A stretch of DNA of 64,000 nt from Streptomyces tateyamensis (GTDB lineage Bacteria; Actinomycetota; Actinomycetes; Streptomycetales; Streptomycetaceae), in the NCBI RefSeq assembly GCF_003205575.1, contig NZ_PYBW01000030.1, positions 38,170-102,169 on the forward strand. Direction: 5' to 3'. Of this stretch, positions 2,638 through 63,729 are shown in pieces; position 1 is the stretch's first letter, and each line of letters opens with the position of its first letter. The position numbers and the translations under genes are program-made. The notes under the pieces are model-generated. The model made no database searches and was not told where the DNA came from. It was given only the letters and a program-made list of their open reading frames with translations.

Positions 2638-2639
2638 AG

Positions 2640-36847: not shown

Positions 36848-36861
36848 CACCTCCACGGGTT

Positions 36862-40865: not shown

Positions 40866-41025
40866 GGTTGTCCCTGCCTTCTGGCGCCACCGTGCCGCCC
40901 ACCGGGCCGATTGCTTGCCCGGGCGGCGCGGAGGCCACTTCCATCGTCGATCCTTGAGACCGTCGCCGGGGAGGCCCGAAGGTCCCGGGCCCAGGGGCCC
41001 GACGGTCCAGGAACCGGTGTGGGGC

Positions 41026-42102: not shown

Positions 42103-42197
42103 GGTCCATACGCCTCCTCGGAGCGTGTCGGCACGGCCGGGCACAGAGCCCGGACGGTCTCATGGCCACTCTTCGCCTCGTCCCGGGCCGTTGAACA

Positions 42198-42211
42198 GGG
42201 CCGATCGGTCC
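42198..42211. promoter_or_regulatory. DosR-type box, shared by divergent genes
   Basis: GGGCCGATCGGTCC is identical to 30614-30627, including the preceding GAACA. It lies 96 bases before hypE on one side and 108 before the beta-CASP gene on the other. Confidence 0.75.
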
Positions 42212-42318
42212 CCACCCGGGGCCGGTGCGGCCCGTGCCGGGTGCGCGCCGTGGTGTGACAGTGGACTGGCAGGGATCTCGTCCGCGCGCGGCGCGGCGTG
42301 CCAGGAGAGGCGGTCACC

Positions 42319-43758: not shown

Positions 43759-43770
43759 GGTGAGCCGCGA

Positions 43771-43800
43771 CCGGGGCGTGGCGTTGTCGCCACGCCCCGG
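43771..43800. terminator. Bidirectional terminator
   Basis: A perfect 13-bp stem (43771-43783 with 43788-43800) and a 4-base loop (TTGT) between two convergent genes. Confidence 0.85.
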
Positions 43801-43830
43801 GTTCGGCCCGTCCGTCGAGATTCCTCGCGC

Positions 43831-46557: not shown

Positions 46558-46698
46558 GGAAACTCCGTGAGGTGTCGACAGCCGTGCCGCAGTACCCCGG
46601 CCGGGCGGGCACGGAAGCCGTGCCATACCTGGTGCCCCGGGCGTGGCACACCCAGCCGGTCACCCCCCAGCCTCGGCCCGGACCGAAGCAGCCGCACA

Positions 46699-46712
46699 GG
46701 GCCGGTCGGCCC
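46699..46712. promoter_or_regulatory. DosR-type box (perfect), divergent genes
   Basis: GGGCCGGTCGGCCC is 95 bases before the GH65 start (46807) and 142 before the Pat-like start (46557). A partial second site, GGGCCGGTGAGG, follows at 46721. Confidence 0.8.
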
Positions 46713-46806
46713 ATACCGCAGGGCCGGTGAGGTTATCTGCGGCCGAGGCCTCTGACCGGCAGACTGGGCTGAGGGCGTGCGGTGCCGCGCCCGGCGAGGA
46801 GGCCCT

Positions 46807-49257: not shown

Positions 49258-49264
49258 CGCGGCG

Positions 49265-50314
49265 TCACTCGGCGAGCAGGACGGCGACCCCGGTGACCCG
49301 GTCGGCCGCGAGGTCCGCCAGCGCGGTGTCAGCCCGGCTCATGGCGTAGCGCTGTACGTGGACGGTGGGGCGGTGCCGGGCCGCCTCGGCCAGGTAGGCG
49401 CGGCCGTCCTCGCGGGTGTTGGCGGTGACACTGCGCAGGGTGCGCTCCTGGAACAGATGCCGGTCGTAGTTCAGGCTGGGGATGTCGGTGAGGTGGATGC
49501 CCGCCACAGCAAGCGTGCCGCCCCTGTCCAAGGCGGCCAGCGCCACCGGCACCAGCTCGCCGACCGGCGCGAAGAGGATCGCCGAGTCGAGGGGCTCGGG
49601 CGGGGCATCGTAGGCGCCGCGGGCGGAGGTCGCGCCGAGCTCCAGGGCCAGCCGCCGGGCTTCCTCGGCCCGGGTGAGGACGTGCACGGTGGCACCCCGG
49701 GAGAGCGCGAGCTGGGCGGTCAGGTGAGCCGACGCCCCGAAGCCGTAGATGCCCAGTCGGCCGCCCGGCGGCAGTTCGGCACGTGCAAGGGCCCGGAAGC
49801 CGATGATGCCCGCGCACAGCAGCGGTGCGAGTTCCTCGTCGGGCGGGCCCTCGGGCAGGTGGTAGGCGAACGAAGCTTTCACCACGGTGTGCCCGGCGTA
49901 GCCGCCGTTGATGTCCCAGCCGGTGTAACGGGAGCGCGGGCAGAGGTTCTCACGCCTCGCCCGGCAGTACTCGCAGATCCCGCACGTGCTCGCCAGCCAC
50001 GCCGCGCCGACGCGGTCACCGGGAGCGAAGCCCCCGACCCCGGGGCCCGCGGACAGCACCCGGCCCACGATCTCGTGGCCTGGAGTGCAGCGGCGCACAC
50101 GGGGCGGCAGATCGCCCTCGGCCAGCTGCAGGTCGGTGCGGCACACTCCGCAGGCCGCGACCTCGACCAGGATCTCCCCCGGCCCCGGCCCCGGCCCCGG
50201 CCCCGGCTCCGCGACCGGCCGCTCCACCCTGCGTAACGGGGACGAGTCAACCGGGCCGGGCCGCTCCACCACCCAGGCGGTCGTGCTGAGCAGATCGGAT
50301 CGAGACGTGGCCAT
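49265..50314 (-). CDS. Zinc-dependent alcohol dehydrogenase (AdhA-like)
   Basis: A protein of 349 residues that starts at ATG 50314. The N-terminal [10 protein letters not shown] stretch is encoded by a GGGGCC-type repeat (about 50178-50211). Catalytic zinc ligands are in [11 protein letters not shown] and GHEIVG; the structural zinc loop is [15 protein letters not shown]. The Rossmann fold has [17 protein letters not shown]. It reduces aldehydes or oxidises alcohols with NAD(P); the fermentative direction fits the cluster. The stop is seven bases from the convergent GH65 stop. It shares a divergent upstream region and a perfect DosR-type box with the hsp20 gene. Confidence 0.9.
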
Positions 50315-50436
50315 GTCCGGCCCTTCCTGGAGCACTCGCGCTATCCGCTGCGAGGCTGCGACCCGCGTCGAGGCGCCGGCGGCGCGGGGATCGCCCACCC
50401 ATCCCATCGTCCACCGCGACCGGGCTCGGCGGATGA

Positions 50437-50450
50437 GGGCCGAACGGCCC
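50437..50450. promoter_or_regulatory. DosR-type box (perfect), divergent genes
   Basis: GGGCCGAACGGCCC lies 106 bases before the hsp20 start and 123 before the alcohol dehydrogenase start. Confidence 0.8.
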
Positions 50451-50555
50451 CGGAACGGGACTGAACGCCCCATGACATCGACTGCCCGGCGAGAGACGGT
50501 GACAGCGCAAGGACCCGTATCCGTCCCACGGTGCCTCAGCGCCGAAGAGGAGGCC

Positions 50556-50989
50556 ATGATGGCTGGATCTCTGCTCCCTCGGCACCGGGTGACGCGGCCG
50601 GACCTGATCGACTGGCTCGGGTCGGGCTTCCCCCCCTCCTGGCGCGCGGCGGTCCCGACCTCCACCCGATCCCGATCGAGGTGACCGAGGAGGACGAGAA
50701 GTACATCGTGCACGCCGAGCTGCCGGGCATGGACCCCGACCACGAGATCGAGATCACGGCCGAGGGCGATGTCCTCACTGTCCGGGCCGAACACACCGAG
50801 AGCAAGCAGGACAAGCAGCACTCGGAGTTCCGCTACGGCTCCTTCCAACGGTCCGTGCGGCTCCCCGTCCCGATCCCCGAGGAGGGCGTCGAAGCTGACT
50901 ACCAGGACGGCATCCTCACCATCCGCGTCCTGCTGGCCGAACAGGCCAAGGAGACGGCTCGCAGCATCCGGGTCAAGCCGCCCCAGTAG
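50556..50989 (+). pseudogene. Hsp20 small heat-shock protein, frameshifted
   Basis: GAGGAGG precedes ATG 50556, whose frame reads [20 protein letters not shown] and runs out at 50684 after 42 codons. The alpha-crystallin domain ([20 protein letters not shown], then [10 protein letters not shown] and [10 protein letters not shown]) is in another frame, continuing to 50989. The two can be joined at a run of seven C at 50630-50636: one more C would give a continuous protein of about 144 residues. Either the gene is inactivated, the run varies in length, or a sequencing error removed a base. Hsp20 chaperones (Acr/HspX) are the hallmark of the DosR response, so an intact form is expected. It shares a box with the divergent dehydrogenase gene. 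Confidence 0.75.
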
Positions 50990-51063
50990 CCGCACCTTGC
51001 GGCCGGGCCTCGCGGCTCCGGCCGCGCAACCCGTCGCCCCCGCACAGTCAGGAGAACCGACCA

Positions 51064-51597
51064 ATGAAGACGAAGCGGATACTCGTGGCCTACGGCAGCA
51101 AGCACGGTGCCACGGCCGGTATCGCCGAGGAAATCGGCAAATCGCTGCGCGAGGACGGCTTCGACACGGCCGTGGTCCCCGCCGGAGACGTCCAGGACGT
51201 CACCGACTTCGACGCCGTGGTGCTCGGCAGCTCCCTGTACGCGGGCCACTGGAACCGTGACGCCCTGCGCTGCGCCCACCGCAACGCCGAGGCCCTGAGC
51301 GAGCGCCCCGTGTGGCTGTTCAGCAGCGGCCCGGTGGACAGCTCGGCCGAACAGCACGACATCCCTCCGGTGCCCGGTGCGGTCAAGGAGATGGAGCGTC
51401 TGCACGCCCGTGGGCACGTCACGTTCGGAGGCAGTATCACCGCCGCGACGCCTGGCTGGATCGCCCGCACCCTGGTGCGGCACGGCAAGGCCGGCGACTT
51501 CCGCAACCCGGAGCACATCCAGCACTGGGCCCACGAAATCGGCGCCGAGCTACGAGAGCAGGACGCCGCACCAATGGAGGGGAACGGTGGCCGGTAG
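51064..51597 (+). CDS. Flavodoxin-domain protein (HemG-like)
   Basis: A protein of 177 residues that starts at ATG 51064 with AGGAGA upstream. The FMN-binding phosphate loop is in [18 protein letters not shown] (about 9-26); [13 protein letters not shown] and [13 protein letters not shown] give the other loops. The fold matches the menaquinone-dependent protoporphyrinogen oxidase/flavodoxin group. The substrate is unknown: it could be a small electron carrier or use menaquinone. It lies 74 bases after the hsp20 gene on the same strand and is probably in its operon, under the box at 50437. Confidence 0.85.
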
Positions 51598-51733
51598 TCC
51601 GGCCCCGGCGTGGGTATCCGGTCCGCCGAACGCATTATCACGCGTGGTGGTAGCCGGCCCACCGGCCCGGGATCGGCTCCCCATGCAGGACGTGATCCCA
51701 AGGCCGGGCAACGAGAGGACGCAAGGAGGAGTC

Positions 51734-52414
51734 ATGTCTGAGAACACCTCGAGCGAGCCGGTCGGGGCACTCGCTGCGGACCCTGGCGATGTCGGCAGAC
51801 GAGTGGCACTGCGGCGCCGAGAGCTGGGACTCACCCGCGAGGAGACAGCGGCGCGTGCCGGCATGGCACCCAACTACCTGGAATACCTGGAGACACGGCC
51901 CGCAGAGGTCGACACCGGCAGTCTGCTGCGGCTTGCGGGCGCGCTGGAGACGTCGGAGTCGCAGTTGCTGGGCGGTGGAGTCGATCTGCCACCTGGCCGG
52001 GGGGACGCCGCCGCCAGGCCCGTCCTGGAAACGCTCGACCCGGCGGAGTGCTGGGCCCGGCTGTCCGAACACGGCATCGGCAGGGTGGCATTCTCGACTC
52101 CGCTGGACCCGGTGGTCCTTCCCGTCAACTACCAGGTGCTGGACGGGGCGATCGTCTACCGCACGGCTGCCGGCAGCGTGCCGGCCACCGCCGTCGGCCA
52201 TCGGGTCGCGTTCGAGGTCGACCACATGGACGAGGCCCTCAGCCAGGGCTGGAGCGTGCTCATGACCGGCCCCGCCGAGCTCGTCACGAGGCCTGCCGGG
52301 AGCGGTCGCCCGGCGCACGGAACCGGTCCGACGCCTTGGGCCGGCGGGCAACGCGACGTATGGGTACGGATAGCGCCAGACGCGATCACCGGCCGCGTCA
52401 TCCGGGTGCACTGA
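51734..52414 (+). CDS. XRE HTH / PNPOx-like fusion protein, second copy
   Basis: A protein of 226 residues that starts at ATG 51734 with AAGGAGG upstream. HTH about 24-80 (LGLTREETAARAGMAPNYLE), then a PNPOx-like split barrel about 95-220 (GIGRVAFSTPLDPVVLPVNY, WSVLMTGPAELV, RVIRVH). It is a paralogue of the protein at 21046, with the same domain order and close motifs, so the cluster has duplicated this type. The barrel probably binds a flavin or F420; the HTH may target DNA or only mediate contacts. It stands between flavodoxin and DUF1918 genes. Confidence 0.85.
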   Translation: MSENTSSEPVGALAADPGDVGRRVALRRRELGLTREETAARAGMAPNYLEYLETRPAEVDTGSLLRLAGALETSESQLLGGGVDLPPGRGDAAARPVLETLDPAECWARLSEHGIGRVAFSTPLDPVVLPVNYQVLDGAIVYRTAAGSVPATAVGHRVAFEVDHMDEALSQGWSVLMTGPAELVTRPAGSGRPAHGTGPTPWAGGQRDVWVRIAPDAITGRVIRVH

Positions 52415-52466
52415 GACATGCCGCGCAGAGGGTTCCTGCCCGGTGCCAGGACGGAAGGAGGCCGTA

Positions 52467-52751
52467 ATGAGAGCGACCGTAGGGGACCGGCTCATTGTGG
52501 AGGGCCCCACCACCGGAGCGCCGCGCCGGGACGGCGAGATCGTCGCCCTGCACCACGAAGACGGCAGCCCGCCCTACGACGTGCGCTGGTCGGACACCGG
52601 GAGGACCACGCTCCTGTTCCCCGGCCCAGGCGCGCACATCCACCACTTCGTCCACCTCGAGCACGCGGAGCCCGCCCGGACGCCGGGCACGAACCCTCCG
52701 CTGGGGCGCCCTGGCAGGTTGGGCAGGCCCGGCGAAGACCTGGGCGTTTGA
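52467..52751 (+). CDS. DUF1918 protein
   Basis: A protein of 94 residues that starts at ATG 52467 with GGAGG upstream. The DUF1918 core is VGDRLIVEGP ... GEIVALHHEDGSPPYDVRW and LLFPGPGAHIHHF, a small SH3-like barrel. Its function is not known, though it is frequent in stress clusters. Beyond residue 65 it has a Pro/Gly-rich extension longer than usual in the family. It is followed on the same strand by two tandem two-domain USPs. Confidence 0.85.
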   Translation: MRATVGDRLIVEGPTTGAPRRDGEIVALHHEDGSPPYDVRWSDTGRTTLLFPGPGAHIHHFVHLEHAEPARTPGTNPPLGRPGRLGRPGEDLGV

Positions 52752-52870
52752 CGGCGCGAAGCCGCCGTTCGACGATCGAAACCGGGGCAGGCGGCTGCCA
52801 GCCCCGGTCCGGAGGAGCTCGGACCCGCAGCCACGGCGCGGCCCGCGCATCCGGGGAAGAGGAGCATGCC

Positions 52871-53743
52871 ATGACACATCCCGTGATAGCCGGAGTCGAC
52901 GACCCTGCCGGCGCCGGTGATGCCGTCGACTGGGCCGCCGATGAAGCCCAGCTCAGAGGTGTGCGGCTGCACCTTGTCCATGCATGGCTGTGGGAACCGC
53001 ACCAGGCACCGGAGTCACTCGACGCCCAGCTCCTCAGACGCTCGGGCGGGGAGGCGCTCGCAGCGCTGGCGGAGCGGGCCGCGAGCCGCCACCCGGACCT
53101 GGAGGTCAGCAGCGGGGTCGTGGACGCGAGCCCGCGCGAGGCGCTGGTCGCCCTCAGCGCGGCGGCCGGGCTGCTCATTGTCGGCTCGCGCGGCTCGGGA
53201 GGATTCCCCGGACTGCTCGTCGGCTCGACGAGCCTGCACGTCGCCGCCCATGCCGCCTGCCCGGTTGTCGTATTCCGCGGCCCTGGAGGCCAATTCGAGG
53301 CTGCCAGCGGCTCACGAGGCGGCGTGGCGGTGGGTGTGCACGGCCGCGAACCGTGTGACGGGCTGCTCTCCTTCGCCTTCGAGACCGCCCAGCGGCGGCA
53401 GCTTCCGCTGCGCGTCGTGCATGCCTGGAGCTACCCGCTGGTCCTCGGCCCCGGGCACGCGTTCCCGCCCGTGTACGAGGAGGGCCACGTGGCGGCGGAG
53501 GAGAACCGGCTGCTCTCCGAAGTCCTGTCCGGATGGCGTGAGAAGTACCCGGAGGTCCCCGTCACCGAGGGCATCGTCCGCTCCGGGCCCGCGAAACACC
53601 TGGTGGAGCTGTCCCAGACGCACCAGCTCGTCGTGGTCGGCCGCCACGGAGAGCCGCAGGGGCCCTTCCGCCGGCTCGGATCCGTCAGCCAGGCGATCGT
53701 CCACCACGCACACTGCCCGGTCGCAGTCATACCCGTCGAATGA
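52871..53743 (+). CDS. Universal stress protein, two domains
   Basis: A protein of 290 residues that starts at ATG 52871 with AGAGGAG upstream. Two USP domains cover about 4-140 (VIAGVDDPAGAGDAVDWAAD ... GSRGSGGFPGLLVGSTSLHV) and about 150-290 (VAVGVHGREPCDGLLSFAFE ... GRHGEPQGPFRRLGSVSQAI). The first domain keeps the ATP loop pattern G-2x-G-9x-G(S/T); the second is degenerate near its loop. Two-domain USPs are typical of actinobacterial DosR clusters. Confidence 0.9.
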   Translation: MTHPVIAGVDDPAGAGDAVDWAADEAQLRGVRLHLVHAWLWEPHQAPESLDAQLLRRSGGEALAALAERAASRHPDLEVSSGVVDASPREALVALSAAAGLLIVGSRGSGGFPGLLVGSTSLHVAAHAACPVVVFRGPGGQFEAASGSRGGVAVGVHGREPCDGLLSFAFETAQRRQLPLRVVHAWSYPLVLGPGHAFPPVYEEGHVAAEENRLLSEVLSGWREKYPEVPVTEGIVRSGPAKHLVELSQTHQLVVVGRHGEPQGPFRRLGSVSQAIVHHAHCPVAVIPVE

Positions 53744-53842
53744 CCCTCCGGACGACGGGAACGTCGGCGGTGGCGAAGCCGCCCGAGGCTCGACGTTCCA
53801 ACGGTCTGCAGACGGGGCGGTTCCCAGCTGCCTGGAGGAGAC

Positions 53843-54754
53843 ATGATGAGTTCTGGCGGGCAACGTCCCGTACTGGTCGGCGTCGATCCCGAACACCCCA
53901 GCCGCATGGTGCTCGTCTGGGCCGCTGACGAGGCGAAACGTCGCCACCTGCCGTTGCACGTCCTGCAAGCCTTCAAACCCCTCACCCGCAACGGAGCATG
54001 GCCCCGGACCTGGCCCGACCTGCAGCAACGTGCCCGACTGCTCCGCACCGCCGGGGAGGAGGCGCTCGACGAGGCGACCCGCTTCATCCGCGAACGCCAC
54101 CCTGGCCTGCCCGTGTCGGCCACGCTCGCCGACGGGGACCCCGTCGATGTCCTGCACCGGCAGGCCGAGGGGTCCGCTCTGCTCGTCCTGGGCTCCCGGC
54201 ACCTGTCTGCGGCGCGTGAGCTGTTCACCGCCGGATCGGTGGCCCTGCCGCTGATCGCGCACGCAAGCTGCCCTGTGGTGGTCGTCCGGGACCCCGAGCA
54301 CATCACCCAGCAGCCCGCGTACCTCGTCGTCGGAGTGGACGGCAGCCCGGCGTCGCAGTCAGCAGTGGATTATGCCTTCGAAGCCGCGGCGCTGCGGGGC
54401 GCGCAGCTGCGCGCGCTGTTCGCCTGGCAGCCCTCGCACCTCCCGGCGGCCGAGGAGTACCGGGTGGAGCAGGAGTCCCGCCGAGTGCTCGCGGAGACCG
54501 CTGCCGGGCGGCGGGAGTCCCACCCCGACGTGACGCTGACGCACGAGGTGGTGCGCGGCCACCCGGTGGCCGTCCTGAGCGAGGCCTCCGCCCACGCCCT
54601 GGCACTGGTCGTCGGGACACGAGGCCTCGGCGGTTTCACCGGCATGCTCCTCGGATCCGTCGGCCAAGGCGTCCTGCACCACGCCCGGTGCCCGGTCATC
54701 ACCGTGCCGGGCCCGGTCGGCCTCGGGGGCGAGACGCGAAGGGCCTCGGGCTGA
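53843..54754 (+). CDS. Universal stress protein, two domains
   Basis: A protein of 303 residues that starts at ATG 53843 with GGAGGA upstream. First USP domain about 9-150 (VLVGVDPEHPSRMVLVWAAD ... GSRHLSAARELFTAGSVALP; ATP loop degenerate), second about 158-295 (LVVGVDGSPASQSAVDYAFE ... GTRGLGGFTGMLLGSVGQGV; loop intact). The arrangement is the reverse of the neighbour, where the first domain has the intact loop. A frame just behind it shows no sign of a further gene before 55019. Confidence 0.9.
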   Translation: MMSSGGQRPVLVGVDPEHPSRMVLVWAADEAKRRHLPLHVLQAFKPLTRNGAWPRTWPDLQQRARLLRTAGEEALDEATRFIRERHPGLPVSATLADGDPVDVLHRQAEGSALLVLGSRHLSAARELFTAGSVALPLIAHASCPVVVVRDPEHITQQPAYLVVGVDGSPASQSAVDYAFEAAALRGAQLRALFAWQPSHLPAAEEYRVEQESRRVLAETAAGRRESHPDVTLTHEVVRGHPVAVLSEASAHALALVVGTRGLGGFTGMLLGSVGQGVLHHARCPVITVPGPVGLGGETRRASG

Positions 54755-54934
54755 GCAGCGGAGTGACAGCGGCTGCACCCGCCGACGTGGGGCCGGGCAC
54801 CAGCGAACCGCTGATGGTCCGTGCGGTCTCCAGGCACGACTGCTCGCCGTGGCGCCCTCGTGCCCTCACACGCCCCCGTGCCGGAGGGCATCCGATGGCA
54901 TGGCAGAGGAGTGGCCTGGCTGTCCCCGGGGACC

Positions 54935-54948
54935 GGGCCGACCGGCCC
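54935..54948. promoter_or_regulatory. DosR-type box (perfect)
   Basis: GGGCCGACCGGCCC, 71 bases upstream of the alcohol dehydrogenase start at 55019. The leader between them has CAGGAGGAGAG before the ATG. Confidence 0.8.
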
Positions 54949-55018
54949 TGTGCACGGCCTCCTGCCGGCGAAAGGCTGGGGGACAGTGTGACCGCGAGCA
55001 GGAGGAGAGTGATCGGAC

Positions 55019-56062
55019 ATGAAGGCGCTGACCTACCACGGTCCCGGACGCCGCAGTTGGGGCGAGGTGCCCGACCCGGTCATCCTCGATCCCGAGGACG
55101 CGGTGGTCCGGGTGGACGCGGTGACCATCTGCGGCACCGACCTGCACATCCTCAAGGGCGACGTCCCCGAGGTGACCGACGGCCGCATCCTGGGCCACGA
55201 GGCCGTCGGGACGGTCATCGAGACCGGGCCGGGTGTCCGCACCCTGGCGCCCGGCGACCGTGTGCTCGTCTCCTGCATCTCCGCGTGCGGACGCTGCGCC
55301 TACTGCCGGACGGGGACATACGGCCAGTGCACGGGAGGCGGCGGCTGGATCCTCGGACACCTGACCGACGGCACCCAGGCCGAGTACGTCCGCACGCCCT
55401 TCGCCGACAACTCCCTGCACAAGCTGCCCCAAGGCCTCAACGACGAGACCGCCCTGCTGCTCGCCGACATCCTGCCCACCGCCTTCGAGGTCGGGGTCCG
55501 CAACGGCCACGTCAGCCCCGGGGACACCGTGGTGATCGTCGGAGCCGGACCGATCGGCCTCGCCGCCATCACCACCGCCCGGCTCTACAGCCCGGCCAAG
55601 ATCATCGCCATCGACCTCGCGACGACCCGCCTGGACGCCGCGAGACGAGCCGGCGCCGACGCGGTCCTCACCGTAGCCGACGCCACCGACGACGCCATCC
55701 GCGCCCTGAGCCCCGACGGCCTGGGCGCAGACGTGGCCATCGAAGCCGTCGGCCTCCCCGACTCCTTCGAACAGTGCACCCGCATAGTGCGCCCCGGCGG
55801 CCGGGTCGCCAACGTCGGCGTCCACGGCAAGCCCGCCACCCTCCACCTCGAATCACTCTGGATCAGAAACGTCACCATCACCACCGGCCTGGTCGACACC
55901 AGCAGCACACCGCTGCTCCTCGACATGCTCGCAGCCGGCCAGCTGGACGTCGCGGGGCTGGTCACCCACCGGTTCGGCCTCGACGAGATGCAGGACGCCT
56001 ACGACGTCTTCGCCGACGCCGGGCAGAACGGCGCCCTGAAGGTGGCGCTGTTCCGCACCTGA
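55019..56062 (+). CDS. Zinc-dependent alcohol dehydrogenase (second type)
   Basis: A protein of 347 residues that starts at ATG 55019. Catalytic zinc residues are in ICGTDLHILKG and GHEAVGTV; the structural zinc cluster is CGRCAYCRTGTYGQC. The nucleotide-binding fold has VVIVGAGPIGLAAITTARLY, and the acidic end of the second strand (IAIDLA) favours NAD(H). It differs from the one at 49265 and groups with the threonine/butanediol dehydrogenase type in layout. It probably disposes of reducing equivalents on aldehydes or ketones. A perfect DosR-type box is upstream. Confidence 0.9.
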   Translation: MKALTYHGPGRRSWGEVPDPVILDPEDAVVRVDAVTICGTDLHILKGDVPEVTDGRILGHEAVGTVIETGPGVRTLAPGDRVLVSCISACGRCAYCRTGTYGQCTGGGGWILGHLTDGTQAEYVRTPFADNSLHKLPQGLNDETALLLADILPTAFEVGVRNGHVSPGDTVVIVGAGPIGLAAITTARLYSPAKIIAIDLATTRLDAARRAGADAVLTVADATDDAIRALSPDGLGADVAIEAVGLPDSFEQCTRIVRPGGRVANVGVHGKPATLHLESLWIRNVTITTGLVDTSSTPLLLDMLAAGQLDVAGLVTHRFGLDEMQDAYDVFADAGQNGALKVALFRT

Positions 56063-56315
56063 GCCGGCACGACGGCCGCTCCCGAAGATCGATATCGATA
56101 CGGGCGCGGCACGAACGACCTGCGGATCGACCGCGGCGACCTGTCCGGTGCGTGAGGCCGCCCCGGGAAAGCCACTCGCGGTGCCCGTGCGCGCCGGGCG
56201 GATCCCCGGGAGCCCGATCGTGAACGTGCCCGCGTTCTCGGTACCGCCAACGGGCTTGGGCCGTCTGAGCAGCGAAGGTACTCGCCGCTCGTCTCTGTTC
56301 CTGCCCGCGCGCGGG

Positions 56316-56591
56316 TCAGGCGTGATCCCGCAGGACCTTCAACCGACGTTGGTATTCGTCGTCGTCGATCTCGCCGTGTGCGTACCGCTCGGCGAGCAGC
56401 CGTTCCGGGTCGGGATGGTGAGCGTCCGGCCGGCCGCTGGTGACCTGGCGGTCAGAGGGATGCCGGTCACCGAGTCGGTGGTAGGCCAGCAGTGCGACCA
56501 GGACGATCAGGCATATCAGGATCAGGATGATCAGCGTCATCAGTCCGTACCCCCAGCCGTTCATGCCCCCGTGGTCGAAGTTGTGGATCAT
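56316..56591 (-). CDS. SHOCT-domain small membrane protein
   Basis: A protein of 91 residues that starts at ATG 56591 with GGGAGG upstream. After a Gly/His-rich N-terminus comes one helix (LMTLIILILICLIVLVALLA), a polar linker, and the SHOCT motif at the end (DPERLLAERYAHGEIDDDEY followed by QRRLKVL). SHOCT domains are thought to help oligomerisation; function is unknown. Boxes at 56665-56699 lie 74-108 bases upstream. The convergent stretch 56063-56315 shows no gene. Confidence 0.85.
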   Translation of the reverse strand: MIHNFDHGGMNGWGYGLMTLIILILICLIVLVALLAYHRLGDRHPSDRQVTSGRPDAHHPDPERLLAERYAHGEIDDDEYQRRLKVLRDHA

Positions 56592-56664
56592 CGTTTGCCT
56601 CCCGGGCTGTGCCTGCGCAGGCGTTCCTCTGACCACCTTGCGCTCCCGGCCGGGGCGGTGGACA

Positions 56665-56699
56665 GGGCCGGTCGGTGGGGAGACGGGCCCGAGCGGCCC
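56665..56699. promoter_or_regulatory. Tandem DosR-type boxes, 21 bp apart
   Basis: GGGCCGGTCGGTGG (56665-56678) and GGCCCGAGCGGCCC (56686-56699) start 21 bases apart, two helical turns, upstream of the SHOCT gene. Confidence 0.65.
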
Positions 56700-56826
56700 T
56701 CGCTTCGATGCCGGCTCGGCCGGTGGCAGACGGCCAGGGCTTGAAGACACTGCACCGAACAGTCAACGGATGGGCCCCCGAGGCTCTCCGTCGGTTGGGG
56801 GAGGGTGCCAGGCGGCCTGGACATGA

Positions 56827-56840
56827 GGGCCGGTCGGCCC
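56827..56840. promoter_or_regulatory. DosR-type box (perfect)
   Basis: GGGCCGGTCGGCCC, 78 bases upstream of the nitroreductase start at 56918. Confidence 0.8.
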
Positions 56841-56917
56841 CTCCTCCCACGGCCCGCCGCGCGCACGATGGGCAGTGGGAGGAGGATCTCCCTCCCCGGA
56901 CGGCGGAGGAGGCCCTC

Positions 56918-57913
56918 ATGCTTACTTCGGCTCTCGACGCCGCAACCTTGGAGCGACTGGTCTCCGCCGCGGTCGCGGCACCGTCCATGCACAACGGGCA
57001 GCCCTGGCGCTTCCGGTTCCGTCCCGAGACCACCACGCTGGAGGTCCGGGCTGTTCCCCAGGGGACGCTGCGGGTCACCGATCCCGCGGACCGCGGGATG
57101 CACATCTCTGTCGGTGCGGCAGTGTTCAATCTCCGCGTTGCCGTCCGCCACCTGGACCGGGAGCCCGTCGTACGGCTCCTGCCGCATCCGGCGGAGCCGG
57201 ACCTGTTGGCCGCCGTCCGGCTCGCGGGCCCGTCCCGCACTTTCGCCGATGACCGGCCGGACCTCTACGCGGCGATGTGGCGTCGGCACAGCAGCCGCCT
57301 GCCCTTCTCCGACCACCCGGTCCCCGCCGCCGTCCTCACCGAACTCGCCGAGGCCGCCCGCACGGAGGGCGCCGAGCTTGACCTGCCGGACGAGTCGGAG
57401 GCCCACCGGCTGCTGGAGGTGACTGCGGAAGCCGAGCGGCGCAACACGACCGATCCCCGGCGCAGTGCTGAAAGTCGCCACGCGATCCAGGGAGCAGCCG
57501 ACGACCCGTACGGGATTCCTGCTGCGGCCCTCGGCCCGCAGGACGCCCACGGCCGGCCGTCGGTACGGGACTTCTCCGCCATCCGGCCCGCCGAGCACCT
57601 GCCCCCGGCCTCCTTCGAGGCACATCCGCGCATCACCCTGCTCTCCACCGCGCGCGATGAGCCCGCCGACTGGCTGCGCGCAGGCCAGGCACTCCAACAC
57701 GTCCTGCTCCTGGCCACCGCGCGAGGCCAACAGGCGTCCCTGCTGCACCAGGCCATGGAATGGCCGGATCTGAGGTGGTCCCTGCGTGACCCGCGCCACG
57801 GCCCCGGCCACCCACAGATGCTGATCCGCCTGGGATACGGGCCCCAAGGGGCCGCGACGCCCCGCAGGCCGGTGGCCGATGTCCTGGAAGGCGGACCCGA
57901 TGACCCCGCCTGA
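56918..57913 (+). CDS. Acg-family nitroreductase-like protein, second copy
   Basis: A protein of 331 residues that starts at ATG 56918 with GGAGGAGG upstream. Motifs match the relative at 23229: VAAPSMHNGQPWRF, RHSSRLPFSDHPVP and RLGYGPQGAATPRRP. The product probably binds FMN; in mycobacteria such proteins are strongly DosR-dependent. The frame extends upstream to 56675, but the ribosome site and box fix the start. It overlaps the next gene by 14 bases. Confidence 0.9.
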   Translation: MLTSALDAATLERLVSAAVAAPSMHNGQPWRFRFRPETTTLEVRAVPQGTLRVTDPADRGMHISVGAAVFNLRVAVRHLDREPVVRLLPHPAEPDLLAAVRLAGPSRTFADDRPDLYAAMWRRHSSRLPFSDHPVPAAVLTELAEAARTEGAELDLPDESEAHRLLEVTAEAERRNTTDPRRSAESRHAIQGAADDPYGIPAAALGPQDAHGRPSVRDFSAIRPAEHLPPASFEAHPRITLLSTARDEPADWLRAGQALQHVLLLATARGQQASLLHQAMEWPDLRWSLRDPRHGPGHPQMLIRLGYGPQGAATPRRPVADVLEGGPDDPA

Positions 57914-58364
57914 CGCACCGGAGCCGGCACCGGTCCTTACAGGGCTACGGAGTGAACTGGCGGGCAGCCGGACCGGGGACGCCTGCACCCGTGCGCAGAG
58001 TCTGGACCTGCTGCGTCAACTGGCGGTCGGACGTCTCATCCACACCGAGGACGCGCTGCCCGCCGTCACCCCGACCTGTTACGTCCTGGACTCCGCCGAC
58101 GCGGTGGTCATCCCGCTGCCCGCCGGATCCAGGCTGGCCACCTCGCTGGAGAACGCGGTGGTGGGCTTCCAGGCGGACCTACTCGACGGACAGACCCGCC
58201 GGGGCTGGACGGTACTGGTCATCGGCCGGTCCCACCTGCTCACGGAGCCCGCCCGGCTCGCCGACCTGCACCAGCACGGCCCGCACCCCTGGGGCCACAG
58301 CGATGCGCACTCGTACCTGCGCATCGACCCCGAACTGGTCACTGGCACACGGCTCGGAGCCTGA
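57900..58364 (+). CDS. PNPOx-like flavin-binding protein
   Basis: A protein of 154 residues that starts at ATG 57900, inside the end of the nitroreductase gene. After an N-terminal helix (SLDLLRQLAVGRLIHTEDAL) comes a split barrel with TPTCYVLDSADAVVIPLP and GWTVLVIGRSHLLTE, as in pyridoxamine-phosphate-oxidase-like proteins that bind FMN or F420. It resembles the barrel half of the XRE fusion proteins in this window but lacks the HTH. It is probably co-expressed with the nitroreductase. Confidence 0.85.
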   Translation: MTPPDAPEPAPVLTGLRSELAGSRTGDACTRAQSLDLLRQLAVGRLIHTEDALPAVTPTCYVLDSADAVVIPLPAGSRLATSLENAVVGFQADLLDGQTRRGWTVLVIGRSHLLTEPARLADLHQHGPHPWGHSDAHSYLRIDPELVTGTRLGA

Positions 58365-58536
58365 GATGAACCGACACGCAGTCGCCGCACCCGAAAGCCT
58401 TGCCCCGGAGGACGCCGTCGCCCTTCCGACACTGGGCCCCGTGAGGCTGCTCGGCACGTGACAGCACCACGGGTACTCCCCGCCACCGAGCACAGCCACC
58501 CAGCGTCCTGAGCTCCTGACCGAGGAGACACGCACC

Positions 58537-59190
58537 ATGCCCCCCGCATCCGCACCACACGGGCGTCCTGCCACTCGGACGACCCTGCGGCACCACCTGC
58601 GCCGTGCCCTCGGCAGGGAGACTAACGCGCTGTGCCGCCGCAGCGACCGGGCTCGCAGCCGACTCGTCCTGACTCTGGCGCTCTCGCTCGTCGGATCGCT
58701 CGTACTCGCTCTGCTGGCCGCCCTGCTGGTGCTGCACCGCGAGCAGGTCGGTGCGCTGCACGACGCACAGCACCGCCACCACCTCACCGCGACCACCCTC
58801 ACCCCGGCAACGCAGGACAACACCCGGGGCGTCGGCGACCCCAACAGTGCCCAGGCGCAGGCGACCTGGGAGTACCCACCGAAGGTCCACGACACTGGCC
58901 AGGTCGACGTCCCACCCACCACAGGAGCCAGCGCGACCGTGGCCATCTGGGTGGACGACACCGGCCGGCCTGTCGCCCCGCCCCGCCCGGGCACCGCCAT
59001 CATGGCGAACGCCGCCTTCGCCGGACTCGGAAGCCTGGCCGCCCTGTCCACGACCACCCTCACCCTCTACACCCTTCGACGCCGCACCCTCGACCGCCGG
59101 GCCGATCGGGCCTGGGAGCCGGCCTGGGAGCGGGTGGAGCCACTGTGGTCCGGACGGACCGGCCACCGGCCCGGCGGCGGGGACCAATGA
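58537..59190 (+). CDS. Rv1733c-like membrane protein
   Basis: A protein of 217 residues of the type of Rv1733c, a mycobacterial DosR-regulon membrane antigen. Start ATG 58537 has GAGGAGA upstream. Two helices, about 43-66 (LVLTLALSLVGSLVLALLAA) and about 152-175 (AFAGLGSLAALSTTTLTLY), flank an extracytoplasmic domain of about 85 residues with TGASATVAIWVDDTGRPVAP. The role is unknown. Its stop overlaps the P-type ATPase start by four bases, so it is probably co-made with the pump. No box was found in the 170 bases upstream, so the nearest candidate is that at 56827, through the nitroreductase and PNPOx genes. Confidence 0.85.
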   Translation: MPPASAPHGRPATRTTLRHHLRRALGRETNALCRRSDRARSRLVLTLALSLVGSLVLALLAALLVLHREQVGALHDAQHRHHLTATTLTPATQDNTRGVGDPNSAQAQATWEYPPKVHDTGQVDVPPTTGASATVAIWVDDTGRPVAPPRPGTAIMANAAFAGLGSLAALSTTTLTLYTLRRRTLDRRADRAWEPAWERVEPLWSGRTGHRPGGGDQ

Positions 59191-61484
59191 GAACCGCCCC
59201 CCGACCGGCCACCAGACGTCTTGAGCCGGCGCTACTCATCACCACCTCCGCCGCCCTGGTCGCAGGAGGGATTTCATTCCTCCTCGGATCCCGCAGCACA
59301 GCGGACCTCTGCTGGGCGCTCGGGACTGCGGCCGGAATCGGACCGGCCGCGGTCTGGGTCATCGCCGCGCTGCGCCGCAAGCACGCCGGAGTCGATCTGA
59401 TCGCCGTACTGGCCCTGGTCGGCACGCTCGCCGTGGGCGAGTACCTGGCCGGGGCACTGATCTCCGTCATGCTCGCCAGCGGCAGAACCCTGGAATCGGC
59501 CGCCCAGCGCCGCGCCTCGCACGACCTGCGCGCCCTACTGGAACGCGCGCCGCACTCCGCCCGCCGCCGCGAAGGCGGGAGCGTCCTGACCGTCCCGCTG
59601 GAGGAGATCACGCCGGGCGACCTGCTCGTGATCGGCCCCGGCGAGGTGGTCCCGGTCGATGGCCAGGCCGCCGGCACCGCGACGCTGGACGAGTCCGCCC
59701 TCACCGGCGAGCCCGAGGACGTGGAGCGGGCGGCCGGGGAGGACGTACGCAGCGGCGTGCTCAACGCGGGCCCCGCCTTCGAACTCCGCGCCACCGCGAC
59801 CGCGGAGAACAGCACGTATGCGGCGATCGTCCGCCTGGCCCGCGAGGCGGGTGCCGAGAACGCGCCACTCGTCCGGATCGCCGACCGAGCGGCCGCCTGG
59901 TTCCTGCCGCTCTCCCTTGCCACTGCCGTGCTGGGCTGGGCGATCGGCGGCACGCCCGAGAGGGCGGTCGCAGTCCTGGTCGTCGCGACCCCCTGCCCCC
60001 TGCTGCTGGCGGCCCCCGTGGCCATCGTCTCGGGCCTCGCCCGGGCCGCCCGCAATGGCGTGGTGATCCGCGACGGCCGGGCGTTGGAGGTCCTCGGGCG
60101 GGCCCGGACCTTGGTGCTCGACAAGACCGGCACCCTCACGGCAGGTAGGCCCCGAGTACTGTCCGTGTCGGCCGCCCCCGGCCGTACCTCGGCCGAGTTG
60201 CTGCGCCTGGCCGCCTCCCTGGACCAGGTGTCCCCCCACGTGCTGGCCGAGGCCCTGGTCCGCGAGGCCCACGCACGCGGCCTGTCGCTGATCGCACCAC
60301 TGGACGCGGCCGAGGAGCCGGGGCGGGGCATCACGGGCCTGGTCGACGGACACCGGCTGGGGGTCGGCCGGGTGGAGCTACCGGGCGATCTGCCGGCCTG
60401 GGCACGCGCCGCGTCCAACCGGGCGGCCCTGGATGGCGCGGCGATCGTCTGGCTGACCGTGGACGGCGAGCTGTCCGGCGTCGTGCTGCTGCGCGACCCC
60501 GTGCGCCACGACGCACCGCGCACCCTGACGCGCCTTCACGAGGCGGGCCTGACCCGGCTGGTCATGCTCACCGGCGACCACGAGGGGGCAGCCCGGGAGG
60601 TCGCCGCGGTCCTGGGCCTCGACGACGTCGCGTCCCGGCAGAGTCCCTCGGACAAGGTCACCGCAGTGCGCGCCGAGCGGGCCCGCGCCGTCACCGTGAT
60701 GGTGGGCGACGGCGTCAACGACGCCCCCGCGCTCGCAGCCGCGAACGTCGGAGTGGCCATGGGCGCGCGCGGCTCGACCGCCTCCTCCGAAGCTGCCGAC
60801 ATCGTGCTGACGACCGACCGGCTGGACCGCCTCGCCGACGCCATGGAAATCGCCGTCCGGTCACGCAAGATCGCAGTACAGAGCGCAGCAGGCGGAATCG
60901 CCCTCTCCCTGGCCGCCATGGCCGTAGCCGCCCTCGGCTACCTCCCGCCGGCCGCCGGCGCACTACTGCAGGAAGCGATCGACGTCACCGTGATCCTCAA
61001 CGCGCTGCGCGCGCTCGGCGCAGGCCGGGCCGCCCGCCAGGCACTGAAGCCCGACACAGAGGACCTACTGAACCGATTCTCGGCCGAGCACGACGACCTG
61101 CGAGACGCCCTCGACATCCTGCGCGACGCCGCCGACCAGGTCGCCACCGGCGACCGCACCCAGGCACTCGCCACCGTACGGCGGGCGCACCACTTCCTTA
61201 CCGACCGGATCCTGCCGCACGAGGACGCGGAGGAGCACCAGCTCTACCCCGCACTGAGCGAACCACTGGGCAGCACCGAGGCCACCGCCACCATGAGCAG
61301 AACCCACGCCGAGATCGGACGCCTCGCCCGCCGGGTGGCCACCCACCTCGAGCAGGCCGACGCGGGCGGGGGCCTGCAACCGGACCAGATCGACGACCTA
61401 CTGGGCAGCCTCTACGGCCTGCACACCGTGCTGCGCCTGCACTTCACCCAGGAAGAAGAGAACTACTTCTCGCTCGTGCGGTGA
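59187..61484 (+). CDS. P1B-type metal ATPase with C-terminal hemerythrin domain
   Basis: A protein of 765 residues that starts at the ATG overlapping the previous stop. The pump has DESALTGEPEDVERAAGED, the M4 metal motif TPCPLL (T268-P269-C270-P271), phosphorylation site D312 in LDKTGTLTAGRP and [18 protein letters not shown] in a late helix is a further expected metal-site motif. From about 628 a hemerythrin domain follows (EHDDLRDAL with H635, LPHEDAEEHQLYP, MSRTHAEIGRL, LHFTQEEENYF), which could hold a di-iron centre. TPC with a C-terminal hemerythrin is the signature of P1B-5 ATPases (Nia-like, Ni/Fe linked), as I recall the literature. A pump with a built-in O2 or iron sensor fits this regulon. 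Confidence 0.92.
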   Translation: MRTAPRPATRRLEPALLITTSAALVAGGISFLLGSRSTADLCWALGTAAGIGPAAVWVIAALRRKHAGVDLIAVLALVGTLAVGEYLAGALISVMLASGRTLESAAQRRASHDLRALLERAPHSARRREGGSVLTVPLEEITPGDLLVIGPGEVVPVDGQAAGTATLDESALTGEPEDVERAAGEDVRSGVLNAGPAFELRATATAENSTYAAIVRLAREAGAENAPLVRIADRAAAWFLPLSLATAVLGWAIGGTPERAVAVLVVATPCPLLLAAPVAIVSGLARAARNGVVIRDGRALEVLGRARTLVLDKTGTLTAGRPRVLSVSAAPGRTSAELLRLAASLDQVSPHVLAEALVREAHARGLSLIAPLDAAEEPGRGITGLVDGHRLGVGRVELPGDLPAWARAASNRAALDGAAIVWLTVDGELSGVVLLRDPVRHDAPRTLTRLHEAGLTRLVMLTGDHEGAAREVAAVLGLDDVASRQSPSDKVTAVRAERARAVTVMVGDGVNDAPALAAANVGVAMGARGSTASSEAADIVLTTDRLDRLADAMEIAVRSRKIAVQSAAGGIALSLAAMAVAALGYLPPAAGALLQEAIDVTVILNALRALGAGRAARQALKPDTEDLLNRFSAEHDDLRDALDILRDAADQVATGDRTQALATVRRAHHFLTDRILPHEDAEEHQLYPALSEPLGSTEATATMSRTHAEIGRLARRVATHLEQADAGGGLQPDQIDDLLGSLYGLHTVLRLHFTQEEENYFSLVR

Positions 61485-61643
61485 GAACCAGGTGGGACAC
61501 GGTTCCGGTACGGCGCGGCCACCGCCTCGCACTCCGCCGCGCCACGGCGGGGCCGTCGGACGACCGTACCGGCAGGCAGGTACGGCCCTACAGGGAAACA
61601 ATCATGCGTACCCGTACGGGCAAGGATCGATCAAGGAGGAACC

Positions 61644-62036
61644 ATGGAGTACGGCCGGACGGTGACGGTGGCGACATCCTTCGAGGACACGGTGACGCGA
61701 GTGCGTCAGGCTCTCGCCGGGCACGGGTTCGGCGTGTTGACGGAGATCGATGTGCAGGCGACGTTGAAGGTGAAACTAGGCGAGGAGATGGAGCCGTACC
61801 TGATCCTCGGCGCGTGCAATCCTGCTCTGGCGAAGCGGGCGCTGGCCGAAGACCGGTCGATCGGGTTGCTGCTGCCGTGCAACGTGGTGGTCCGAGGCAG
61901 CGAAGGCCGCACGGTAGTGCAGGTGCTGGATCCACAGACGATGGTGCAGCTGACCGGCCTGTCTACCTTGCAGGTGGTGGCGGACGAGGCCGCTGAGCGG
62001 CTTGACGCGGTGCTGGCCTCCCTGCCACAACACTAG
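61644..62036 (+). CDS. DUF302 protein
   Basis: A protein of 130 residues that starts at ATG 61644 with AAGGAGGA upstream. The DUF302 fold is represented by FEDTVTRVRQALAGHGFGVL (about 13-32), the YLILGACNPALAKRALAED loop and IGLLLPCNVVV. DUF302 proteins may bind metals or small ligands, and the conserved Cys residues in ACNP and PCNV are typical of the family. It ends just before the tandem DosR-type boxes that serve the slipin gene. Confidence 0.88.
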   Translation: MEYGRTVTVATSFEDTVTRVRQALAGHGFGVLTEIDVQATLKVKLGEEMEPYLILGACNPALAKRALAEDRSIGLLLPCNVVVRGSEGRTVVQVLDPQTMVQLTGLSTLQVVADEAAERLDAVLASLPQH

Positions 62037-62039
62037 CGG

Positions 62040-62074
62040 GGGCCGTTCGGCGCACTCAAGGGGCCGCTCGGCCC
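62040..62074. promoter_or_regulatory. Tandem DosR-type boxes, 21 bp apart
   Basis: GGGCCGTTCGGCGC (62040-62053, one mismatch) and GGGCCGCTCGGCCC (62061-62074, perfect) start 21 bases apart, directly after the DUF302 stop. The slipin start is about 200 bases on, a longer leader than elsewhere. Confidence 0.75.
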
Positions 62075-62275
62075 CTGCCGCCCAGCCTGACGTCGAGCCA
62101 TGCTCGATATCAGGCATGGCCTACGTCCTCGAAGTCGTTCCAGCGACCCGCTCCGGCAGATACGGGACGTTGCATCAGGCCACATACAGAGCCCGGCAAG
62201 CGGAACCGGTGCTCCGCCGGCGCATAACTGGACCGCGCGCGGGAGCGGCGGGGTCATCATCCCGAGGAGCAGCAC

Positions 62276-63181
62276 ATGAAACTTCTGATCATCCTCTTGG
62301 TCATCTTCGTCATCCTGGGCCTGTTGGTATTCGCCATGGCAGTCAGGGTTGTCAAGCAGTACGAAAAAGGGGTGCTGTTCCGGTTCGGTCGGCTCGTCGG
62401 AGAACGGCCCCCGGGGTTGCGGATCATTATCCCGGTGGTTGATGTCCTGCATCGGGTGTCGTTGCGGATCGTCACGATGCCGATCCAGTCCCAGGGCATC
62501 ATCACCCGCGACAACGTGAGCGTCGATGTTTCGGCGGTCGCCTACTTCCGGGTCGTCGACGCGGTGAAATCGGTCATCGCGATCGAGAACGTGTACGCCG
62601 CGACCGACCAGATCGCACAGACCACCCTGCGGAAGGTCGTCGGCCAGCACACGCTCGACGAGACGCTGTCGGAGACCGACCGCATCAATCTGGACATCCG
62701 CGAGATTCTCGATGTCGCGACTGTCGAGTGGGGCGTTGAGGTCACGCTGGTCGAGCTCAAGGACATCCAGTTGCCCGAGAGCATGAAACGCGCGATGGCC
62801 CGCCAGGCCGAGGCGGAGCGGGAGAAGAGGGCGAAGATCATCAACGCTGAAGGGGAATCGCTCGCCGCCGCTGCACTCGGCGACGCCTCGGACACCATGA
62901 TGGCCCACCCGCTGGCACTGCAGCTCCGCAATCTGCAGAGCCTGGTGGAGATCGGTGTGGACAAGAACACCACGGTCGTCTTCCCCGCTCCCCTCATGAG
63001 CACCATCGGCGAACTCGGTTCCTTCCTCGCCCGGGAAACGGCAGCGGCCACATCCTCGGCAGCGCCGATCGACCTCGCCAAGGTGACTGCCGGCCCGGTG
63101 CCGAACGGAGCAGCCGAGCCCGCCGAAATCGCCAAGCTGCTCTCCCGATCGGTGGAGAACGGAGCAACCGAGCCCGTCTGA
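62276..63181 (+). CDS. Slipin (SPFH/band 7 membrane protein)
   Basis: A protein of 301 residues that starts at ATG 62276 with GAGGAG upstream. An N-terminal helix (LIILLVIFVILGLLVFAMAV) anchors an SPFH domain: VKQYEKGVLFRFGRL, PGLRIIIP, ITRDNVSVDVSAVAYFRV and VVGQHTLDETLS. A helical stretch with RQAEAEREKRAKIINAEGE follows (about 175-200), and then a Ser/Ala/Pro-rich tail. Slipins form large ring assemblies in detergent-resistant membrane and may work with NfeD proteases; no nfeD is in the window. In stress clusters a membrane-protective role is probable. Confidence 0.9.
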   Translation: MKLLIILLVIFVILGLLVFAMAVRVVKQYEKGVLFRFGRLVGERPPGLRIIIPVVDVLHRVSLRIVTMPIQSQGIITRDNVSVDVSAVAYFRVVDAVKSVIAIENVYAATDQIAQTTLRKVVGQHTLDETLSETDRINLDIREILDVATVEWGVEVTLVELKDIQLPESMKRAMARQAEAEREKRAKIINAEGESLAAAALGDASDTMMAHPLALQLRNLQSLVEIGVDKNTTVVFPAPLMSTIGELGSFLARETAAATSSAAPIDLAKVTAGPVPNGAAEPAEIAKLLSRSVENGATEPV

Positions 63182-63644
63182 TCAGCGTCCGCCCGTCGTG
63201 GCCTGCCCGTCCAATGGGCGGGCCAGGACCAGCTGCAGGAGATGCCGACCGTGATCGCCAGTGAGCACAGCAGTCAGTGGTCGGCTTGTGCAGTGGCACG
63301 TTGATCACGAAGATCGAGGCGGTCAGCGCTCCGGCGAGGTAGACCAGGCGTAGCGAGAAGCGGCGCGACCTGGAACTCGGTTGCGAGCTGGTGGGTGCTC
63401 AGCCCGGCGGCGATCTCGCCTAACGCGGTACGAGCTCCGGTGGCCACCCGGCCGCCTGGTGCCGGGGAGGATCGGTAGGCTGGAGAGGTGCCCCGAAGGG
63501 GGCGCGTGCAGCTTGGGACACCCGGATTTCGCCCGTATGAGGCTGAGAAATGATGGGCGTCGGTGAGATCCACGGAGAGTGATTTTCGCAGCTCAGCGAT
63601 CATGGCGCCGCATCGTTGCAGGTCAGCGGCCCGGCCGAGGAAAA
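63182..63644. other. Non-coding stretch with possible gene remnant
   Basis: About 460 bases with no convincing gene. On the minus strand near 63250-63350 a short hydrophobic reading (LVYLAGALTASIFVINVPLH) looks like a piece of a membrane protein with no start or stop context. Nothing else was recognised; the tRNA fragment follows at once. Confidence 0.4.
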
Positions 63645-63686
63645 CTCCTAAAGCTGGTGTCGCAGGTTCGAATCCTGCCTGGGGCA
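63645..63686 (+). other. 3' fragment of tRNA-Arg(CCT), putative att site
   Basis: The sequence begins with an anticodon loop CTCCTAA (63645-63651; anticodon CCT), then has a complete T-arm GCAGG-TTCGAAT-CCTGC (63662-63678), the 3' acceptor strand CTGGGGC (63679-63685) and discriminator A. The D-arm, 5' acceptor strand (expected GCCCCAG) and a pairing 5' anticodon stem are missing upstream. Such 3' ends are what site-specific integration into a tRNA gene leaves at the far end of an element. Confidence 0.7.
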
Positions 63687-63696
63687 CGTCGCACCG

Positions 63697-63729
63697 GAGG
63701 CCCCCTCGGAGATCGTCCGAGGGGGCCTC
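63697..63729 (+). terminator. Strong hairpin after the tRNA fragment
   Basis: GAGGCCCCCTCGGA (63697-63710) pairs perfectly with TCCGAGGGGGCCTC (63716-63729) around GATCG. It probably ended transcription of the original tRNA gene. Confidence 0.75.

Follow-up and report, generated by a model that had tools for sequence, protein, structure and literature searches.

Sequence comparison indicated that a T4SS-type ICE of ~106 kb very probably interrupts the host tRNA-Arg(CCT) gene of Streptomyces tateyamensis at its anticodon loop, carrying its own tRNA-Arg(CCT) gene and a dormancy gene cluster as cargo. The window, which is the whole stretch of 64,000 nucleotides analysed, belongs to contig C212, and the left end (attL) was located on a second contig, C269; positions without a contig prefix refer to the window. 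In order from attL, the element would comprise the integrase, tRNA-Arg and excisionase-like genes, the T4SS (C212:4-15 kb), a mostly unshared stretch (15-34 kb), ParB, further backbone genes, the MobF relaxase, the 46-kb DevSR/OsdKR-type cluster and the right end (attR).

The right end was located at 63645..63687 on the forward strand. The initial annotation had described a tRNA-Arg(CCT) fragment from the anticodon loop to the discriminator at this place, and comparison with the intact genes of relatives bore this out: over all 43 nt it agreed with the 3′ half of that gene in strains G005 (E 1.5e-15) and G003 (E 1.7e-15). The sequence runs from CTCCTAAAGC to GGGGCAC; its first base is the start of the anticodon loop (CTCCTAA), and it spans the loop, the T-arm and the acceptor strand, with the discriminator A at 63686. 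It was considered a fragment because the Rfam tRNA model reached only 15.6 bits against a cut-off of 29 and ARAGORN called no tRNA in the window. Rfam matches to YrlA and Plastid-ycf2 at the same place were below cut-off and were rejected. On the chromosomal side, 3′ of the original tRNA gene, a hairpin with a 14-bp stem was predicted by folding at 63697..63729 (forward strand); the 58-nt stretch had a folding energy of -35.3 kcal/mol (z -3.4), and 2 of 200 shuffles were equally good. Of the strong terminator proposed earlier, the hairpin was thus confirmed; no T-run follows it.

The 5′ part of the tRNA, correctly reported as absent at the fragment, was found on C269 at 4172-4132 on the minus strand, where a 23-base pattern of the 5′ half matched with no mismatches. 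This attL sequence reads GCCCCAG...CAGCT and then CTCCTAAAGC, and the likeness to a tRNA was lost beyond that point. The identity between attL and attR is confined to this 10-bp core, at C269:4141-4132 and at 63645-63654, and no other copy of the core was found in C212:1-170000 or C269:1-15000. When joined, the 5′ half and the 3′ half gave the G005 tRNA at 74 of 74 bases. A tyrosine integrase gene (C269:2774-4006; Phage_integrase Pfam 4.5e-25) points at attL and ends ~125 bp from the core, as expected of an integrase beside its att site. The far end foreseen in the initial annotation, an intact tRNA with the same 40-bp 3′ end next to an integrase, was therefore found in part only: the integrase and an end adjoining the core were present, whereas no intact tRNA with that 3′ end was found in the assembly. 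What lies there is a broken 5′ half, the shared 10-bp core and, within the element, a complete tRNA-Arg(CCT) of different sequence. An intact tRNA gene is missing from both ends, and the usual reconstitution of the tRNA was thus not seen.

Both ends also carried two arm-type repeats, which follow each other alike on moving away from the core: GCAGGTCAG[C/A]GGCC first and then CCCGGATTTCGCCC. The first is represented by GCAGGTCAGCGGCC at 63618..63631 (forward strand) and by GCAGGTCAGAGGCC at C269:4089 (minus strand); the second, CCCGGATTTCGCCCG at 63521..63535 (forward strand), is paired with C269:4038 (minus strand) in a 15-nt match. The 9-mer GCAGGTCAG had eight copies in C212:1-170000, of which the attR-side copy alone continued with NGGCC, and the 14-mer CCCGGATTTCGCCC was restricted to these two places in C212:1-170000 and C269:1-15000. 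At attL, the first of the two repeats lies 52 bp from the start of the anticodon loop, both here and in a related element of strain G009. The putatively active tyrosine integrase would have recombined the core and split the host tRNA gene, leaving its 5′ half at attL and its 3′ half at attR after integration, and precise excision would restore the host tRNA-Arg(CCT).

Comparison with relatives that lack the insertion, as suggested at the outset, revealed empty sites with an intact tRNA. The fragment was matched in all 36 same-genus relatives searched, and the best matches outside G005 and G003 had identities of 85-100% over 43-63 nt. A complete tRNA-Arg(CCT) was present in all 28 of these relatives whose loci were read with ARAGORN, including G025 and G018. 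In strains G005, G003, G010 and G025, C269 from ~5.3 kb formed one flank of the intact tRNA and C212 from ~102.4 kb the other, and no match of at least 300 bp to C212:1-101813 was found in the stretches of these four relatives. The flanks in G018 gave little support for this neighbourhood. An ICE is indicated by this combination of a site occupied between attL and attR and an empty site in relatives.

Strains G025 and G018 each had an extra fragment starting from the same anticodon-loop base (CTCCTAA), 19,468 and 10,151 bp away, respectively. These belong to elements of 19.5 kb (G025; L054-L056) and 10.2 kb (G018; L057-L058) that restore tRNA-Arg(CCT), with direct repeats of 44 and 47 nt. To judge from these repeats, conventional insertions also occur at the tRNA-Arg(CCT) locus. 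ARAGORN further called a tRNA-Thr(CGT) in G018 (L119), which looked like a false call and was set aside.

The complete tRNA-Arg(CCT) of the element is located beside the integrase gene at C269:2463-2390 on the minus strand (ARAGORN). When the 69 tRNA places that exceeded the Rfam cut-off were re-read by ARAGORN, it was the only tRNA-Arg(CCT); the other tRNA-Arg genes of the assembly were TCT, CCG and two ACG. It has a GCGCCCG acceptor and shares 58 of 74 positions with the host gene. Its exact sequence occurred in one of the 70 genus genomes, this one, and matches of 81-88% in the other genus genomes would fit the resident tRNA-Arg(TCT), as judged from the case of its own genome. Within 394 genomes of the class, 20 others matched it at 1e-21 or better; five of these were read with ARAGORN and comprised three CCT copies (one genus) and two CCG copies (another family) with 92-94% identity. 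Two of the three CCT copies, which come from a family of the class other than that of the host, were identical at 68 of 74 positions, and the third, L192, was cut one base off, which makes its value of 21/74 an artefact. A Tsukamurella plasmid record with a 92% tRNA match was set aside; the match adjoins argS, and there was no integrase in the 8 kb seen. Nor is the replacement tRNA common to the sister elements, as its stretch, which separates the integrase from the backbone, was unaligned in G001, G009 and G018.

The att sequence of the element supplies no working 3′ half, and the carried tRNA-Arg(CCT), if expressed, would replace the broken gene and supply its function to the host. AGG was used at 2.8 per 1000 codons in C212:101814-170000 and at 3.7 in the element, which indicated that a tRNA-Arg(CCT) has work to do. 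tRNA-Arg(TCT) might read AGG as well. No sigma-70-like promoter was found before the element tRNA, in a scan ill-suited to high-GC actinobacteria.

Another explanation of this end is that attL once restored the tRNA, that its 3′ half decayed later and that the extra tRNA is incidental. In G009, an integrase with 58% identity to the present one adjoins an intact tRNA-Val, and the distance from loop to arm is again 52 bp, which makes a restoring ancestor likely, and the conventional elements of G025 and G018 restore tRNA-Arg(CCT) itself. Against this, a T-arm was unrecognisable by eye in the 43 nt at attL, and the only tRNA-Arg(CCT) found is that of the element, in a stretch foreign to the alignments with the sister elements. 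We consider decay of a restoring end to be possible, though rather doubtful. It could describe the history of the element and not its present anatomy, and could then be compatible with a non-restoring, tRNA-carrying ICE: with an extra tRNA on board, a restoring half could have been free to drift.

The gene content of the backbone, as called by a simple in-house script, was that of a T4SS-type ICE. Inward of the integrase, a 64-aa excisionase-domain protein was encoded (29.7 bits; cut-off 28.8). C212:4.4-15 kb encoded TrbL-like (below the Pfam cut-off), SCO6880-family, VirB4/HerA-like, VirD4-like and DnaB-N proteins, and was followed by a ParB gene before the relaxase. The VirD4-like protein was identified as a type IV coupling protein (T4CP) by T4SS-DNA_transf (6.4e-22) and TraG-D_C (2.9e-26), and the VirB4-like ATPase matched VirB4_CagE at 4.4e-12, its 45 bits being well under the curated cut-off of 643. 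The relaxase noticed earlier to the left of the fragment was confirmed as a MobF (TrwC) relaxase-helicase of 1679 aa at 12632..17671 on the forward strand (TrwC 1.5e-81; NCBIfam MobF 255 bits, cut-off 100), of the MOBF type known from T4SS-type ICEs of actinobacteria. It is the last gene of the right part of the backbone (1..17671), which was collinear with G018 at 86-93% DNA identity; K. phosalacinea L092 was also collinear with the backbone from 2785 on. A Fic-domain protein was encoded at 1900..2577 on the forward strand (PF02661 2.4e-12; PADLOC candidate PDC-S04). It is what was left of the toxin-antitoxin genes initially annotated, as no antitoxin was present among the genes scanned. A segment of ~220-400 bp was repeated at C212:36073-36294 and at window positions 2785-3019, and several copies of it existed in G018.

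Relatives of the T4CP at E 1e-80 or better occurred in 4 of the 70 genus genomes and relatives of the integrase at 1e-60 or better in 8 of the 70, this genome being included in both counts; in G001 both were found on one 49-kb contig. The closest named relatives of the relaxase were from Kitasatospora (91% and 83%), by which the host genus would most likely be Kitasatospora. In the flanks of up to 10 kb at 13 named loci with relaxase relatives, nothing resembled at the DNA level the part of the window that lies to the right of the relaxase, and L091, the 91% relative, shared the relaxase and ~140 bp before it, and nothing else.

The weak VirB4-like match would allow the element to be an integrated remnant that can no longer be excised or transferred. 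The integrase, the excisionase-like gene, the T4CP and the relaxase are nevertheless all open frames, both ends are recognisable, and most genes of the backbone up to the relaxase had amino acid identities of 70-95% to G018. A remnant therefore appeared unlikely, and conjugative transfer of the ~106-kb ICE may still be predicted from its genes.

The extent of the element was deduced across a draft assembly of 439 contigs, in which the joint of C269 and C212 was drawn from relatives. In G001, G009 and G018, the counterparts of C269:1-2.2 kb adjoin those of C212 from 0.46 kb on, and the implied gap between C269:1 and C212:1 was ~0.65, 1.6 and 0.02 kb, respectively. This neighbourhood in three relatives indicated one element of ~4.1 plus 101.8 kb and a small gap, ~106 kb in all, with window positions 1-63644 inside it. 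Collinearity extended from C269:1 through the T4SS of C212, to ~15 kb in G001 and G018 and to ~10.4 kb in G009, and G018 was also collinear with C212:36-55.8 kb. A search for the other end of the element in G018 did not locate it. A gap of 186 N (C212:37984-38169) lies directly to the left of the window, and both of its sides were collinear in G018 and G001.

One could suppose instead that the left part of C212 is chromosomal and was placed at attR by rearrangement, so that the real element would be much smaller. The draft state of the assembly and the 186-N gap would permit this, homologues of the cargo exist outside this ICE in relatives, and C212:15-34 kb was mostly unshared with G001, G009 and G018. 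Within the latter stretch, C212:15202-23440 contains nine genes with a core-like GC3 of 0.90-0.97, among them an APH-type phosphotransferase, and looks like a second, separate cargo block. On the other side stand the backbone neighbourhood in three relatives and the collinear C212:36-55.8 kb of G018, the absence of any att core in C212:1-170000 besides attR, and the flanks from C269 and C212 that are neighbours in four relatives. In addition, the median GC3 was 0.90 in the backbone and 0.89 in the cargo, in comparison with 0.96 in the core. A much smaller element was accordingly judged very improbable. The proposal that one integrated element takes in everything in the window as far as 63644, dormancy cluster included, was upheld by the matched ends and the backbone collinear in relatives. 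A chance tRNA-like sequence or a pseudogene without any element, which the shortness of the fragment alone might suggest, was refuted by the 43/43 identity, the other half beside an integrase and the empty sites in relatives.

Between the relaxase and attR, the ICE would carry a dormancy/hypoxia-type cluster of 46 kb (17672..63644) with 41 called genes, recognised by homologous clusters and by OsdR-like boxes. Pfam domains were scanned in 28 of the 41 genes. A DevS/OsdK-type sensor kinase with two GAF domains and HisKA_3 is encoded at 31694..33436 on the forward strand, and its five best solved relatives were the GAF domains of DevS and a like one. It adjoins a DevR/OsdR-type response regulator at 33428..34099 on the minus strand (best solved relative DevR 3c3w, 5.9e-74), so that a DevS-type GAF kinase is paired with a DevR-type regulator, as in a DevR/OsdR dormancy regulon. 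The forward-strand gene at 34478..36847, PPDK-like, encodes phosphoenolpyruvate synthase; a classical PPDK was rejected here, as it was the NCBIfam model of phosphoenolpyruvate synthase that scored over its cut-off. Domain scans further identified CBS/BON proteins, a nitroreductase-family protein and a P-type cation ATPase (22351..28969, minus strand), HSP20 and two double universal-stress proteins (50681..54754, forward strand), a P-type ATPase with a hemerythrin domain (59187..61484, forward strand), and an SPFH/Band 7 protein (62276..63181, forward strand), which is the last called gene before attR. GH65, two alcohol dehydrogenases and a CoA ligase/GNAT protein were also encoded in the cargo. 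No nitrate reductase gene was present among the 28 scanned genes.

A scoring matrix was derived from six OsdR sequences given in PMC5069765. With a threshold of 13.9 bits, 10 OsdR-like boxes were found in the cargo, while the 55.8-kb backbone had none, nor had the 68.2 kb of core sequence; the reversed controls had 0, 1 and 0, and six first-order shuffles had 0, 2, 0, 0, 0 and 0 in the cargo and 2, 1, 1, 0, 1 and 1 in the core. Eight of the ten strong boxes were intergenic, 77-255 bp before genes, so that strong predicted sites lie upstream of regulon genes as in a dormancy regulon. At 9 bits, hits and reversed controls numbered 18 and 11 in the cargo, 9 and 8 in the backbone, and 9 and 23 in the core, which indicated that only the strong sites are informative. 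In the clusters of relatives, strong sites were fewer than in the cargo, with 3 in G003, 7 in G033 and 4 in G080 (80 kb) and 2 in G085 (40 kb), and the reversed controls were 1, 0, 0 and 0, respectively. The M. tuberculosis-type palindrome GGGACNNNNGTCCC was not enriched (4 copies, against 7 upon reversal). From the strong boxes, it may be predicted that the OsdKR-type pair controls the cargo in response to oxygen.

The origin of the cargo was examined with the sensor kinase, which had a match at 1e-90 in all 70 genus genomes; in 10 of the 69 others this was a paralogue of 45-48% only. A closer kinase existed in the remaining 59, with a best E of 1e-195 or better and 60-91% identity in the rows listed. 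The matches listed for the present genome were two, the copy on the ICE and a paralogue of 45%. Four clusters of relatives were compared, on contigs of 8.5 Mb (G003) and 8.8 Mb (G080), both chromosome-sized, 1.6 Mb (G033) and 0.42 Mb (G085). At least one of them matched 34 of the 41 cargo genes over at least 70% of the length, with identities of at least 70% for 27 of these 34; the HSP20 and SPFH genes had no match there, and the gene order was partly different. No match to C212:1-56000 (filters of >250 bases and >72%) was found near the four clusters, and thus they do not lie in this ICE within the stretches read. No relative was found that combines this cargo with this ICE, and joint movement of the cargo genes was accordingly not observed. 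The cargo is not claimed to be younger than the species split, since its identities to G003 overlapped with those of the core. As to the mobile hypoxia-survival regulon proposed at first, transfer genes and matching ends were found, and the transfer itself may be predicted from them. Whether the host's only tRNA-Arg(CCT) was destroyed and a foreign-looking one brought in while an OsdKR-type regulon moved between Kitasatospora-like hosts appeared to us an even call.

T4SS-type ICEs with a MOBF relaxase are known in actinobacteria (PMC3218068, PMC6722414, PMC9513070), and 17 putative ones were reported in 275 genomes (Ghinet et al., 2011; PMC3218068). As described there, they share with the present element a tyrosine integrase, a VirD4-like T4CP, a TrwC relaxase and, on a match well under the cut-off, a putative VirB4-like ATPase; the present element differs from that description in the unrestored tRNA, the carried replacement tRNA and the dormancy cargo. 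The words "dormancy," "anticodon" and "restore" do not occur (0 counts each) in the main text of PMC3218068. According to the same paper, a tRNA-Arg gene is also the site of the S. avermitilis AICEs Sav3708/Sav3728. Whereas AICEs have an FtsK/SpoIIIE-type TraB as their sole transfer protein, T4SS-type proteins were encoded in the present element. Targeting of the anticodon loop of tRNA genes is known, with the tRNA normally reconstituted, as far as described in PMC8371274. The repeats of the conventional elements in G025 and G018 start at the same loop base as the present core, but these have an intact tRNA and 44-/47-nt repeats, in contrast to 10 bp and a broken gene here. Tycheposons and some other elements bring whole tRNA genes, and the likeness to them is one of description. 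The open-licence literature searched contained no report of an actinobacterial ICE that breaks and replaces its tRNA, and none of a dormancy regulon on an ICE.

PMC5069765 places the OsdR regulon in a region of the Streptomyces coelicolor chromosome (SCO0167-SCO0219). According to that description, the S. coelicolor OsdKR regulon and the present cluster have in common the sensor kinase, the DevR-type regulator, universal stress proteins, a nitroreductase, a PEP-synthase/PPDK-like gene, an alcohol dehydrogenase and a palindrome of the GGGCC-GGCCC type; here, in contrast, the cluster is part of an ICE, in the slot from the relaxase to attR. The best reading is that a non-restoring tRNA swap, with a dormancy cluster as ICE cargo, makes this element an unusual variant of the T4SS-type ICE.

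It provides a clear case that runs against the reconstitution rule: a core in the anticodon loop is all that the integrase leaves, the tRNA is broken, and a substitute comes with the element. If the tRNA swap is true, any loss of the element except by precise excision would deprive the host of the tRNA that reads AGG. With a dormancy cluster as its cargo, the ICE makes it testable whether soil actinobacteria can gain low-oxygen survival by conjugation, and if both the tRNA swap and the mobility of the regulon are true, hypoxia survival would be a transferable trait.
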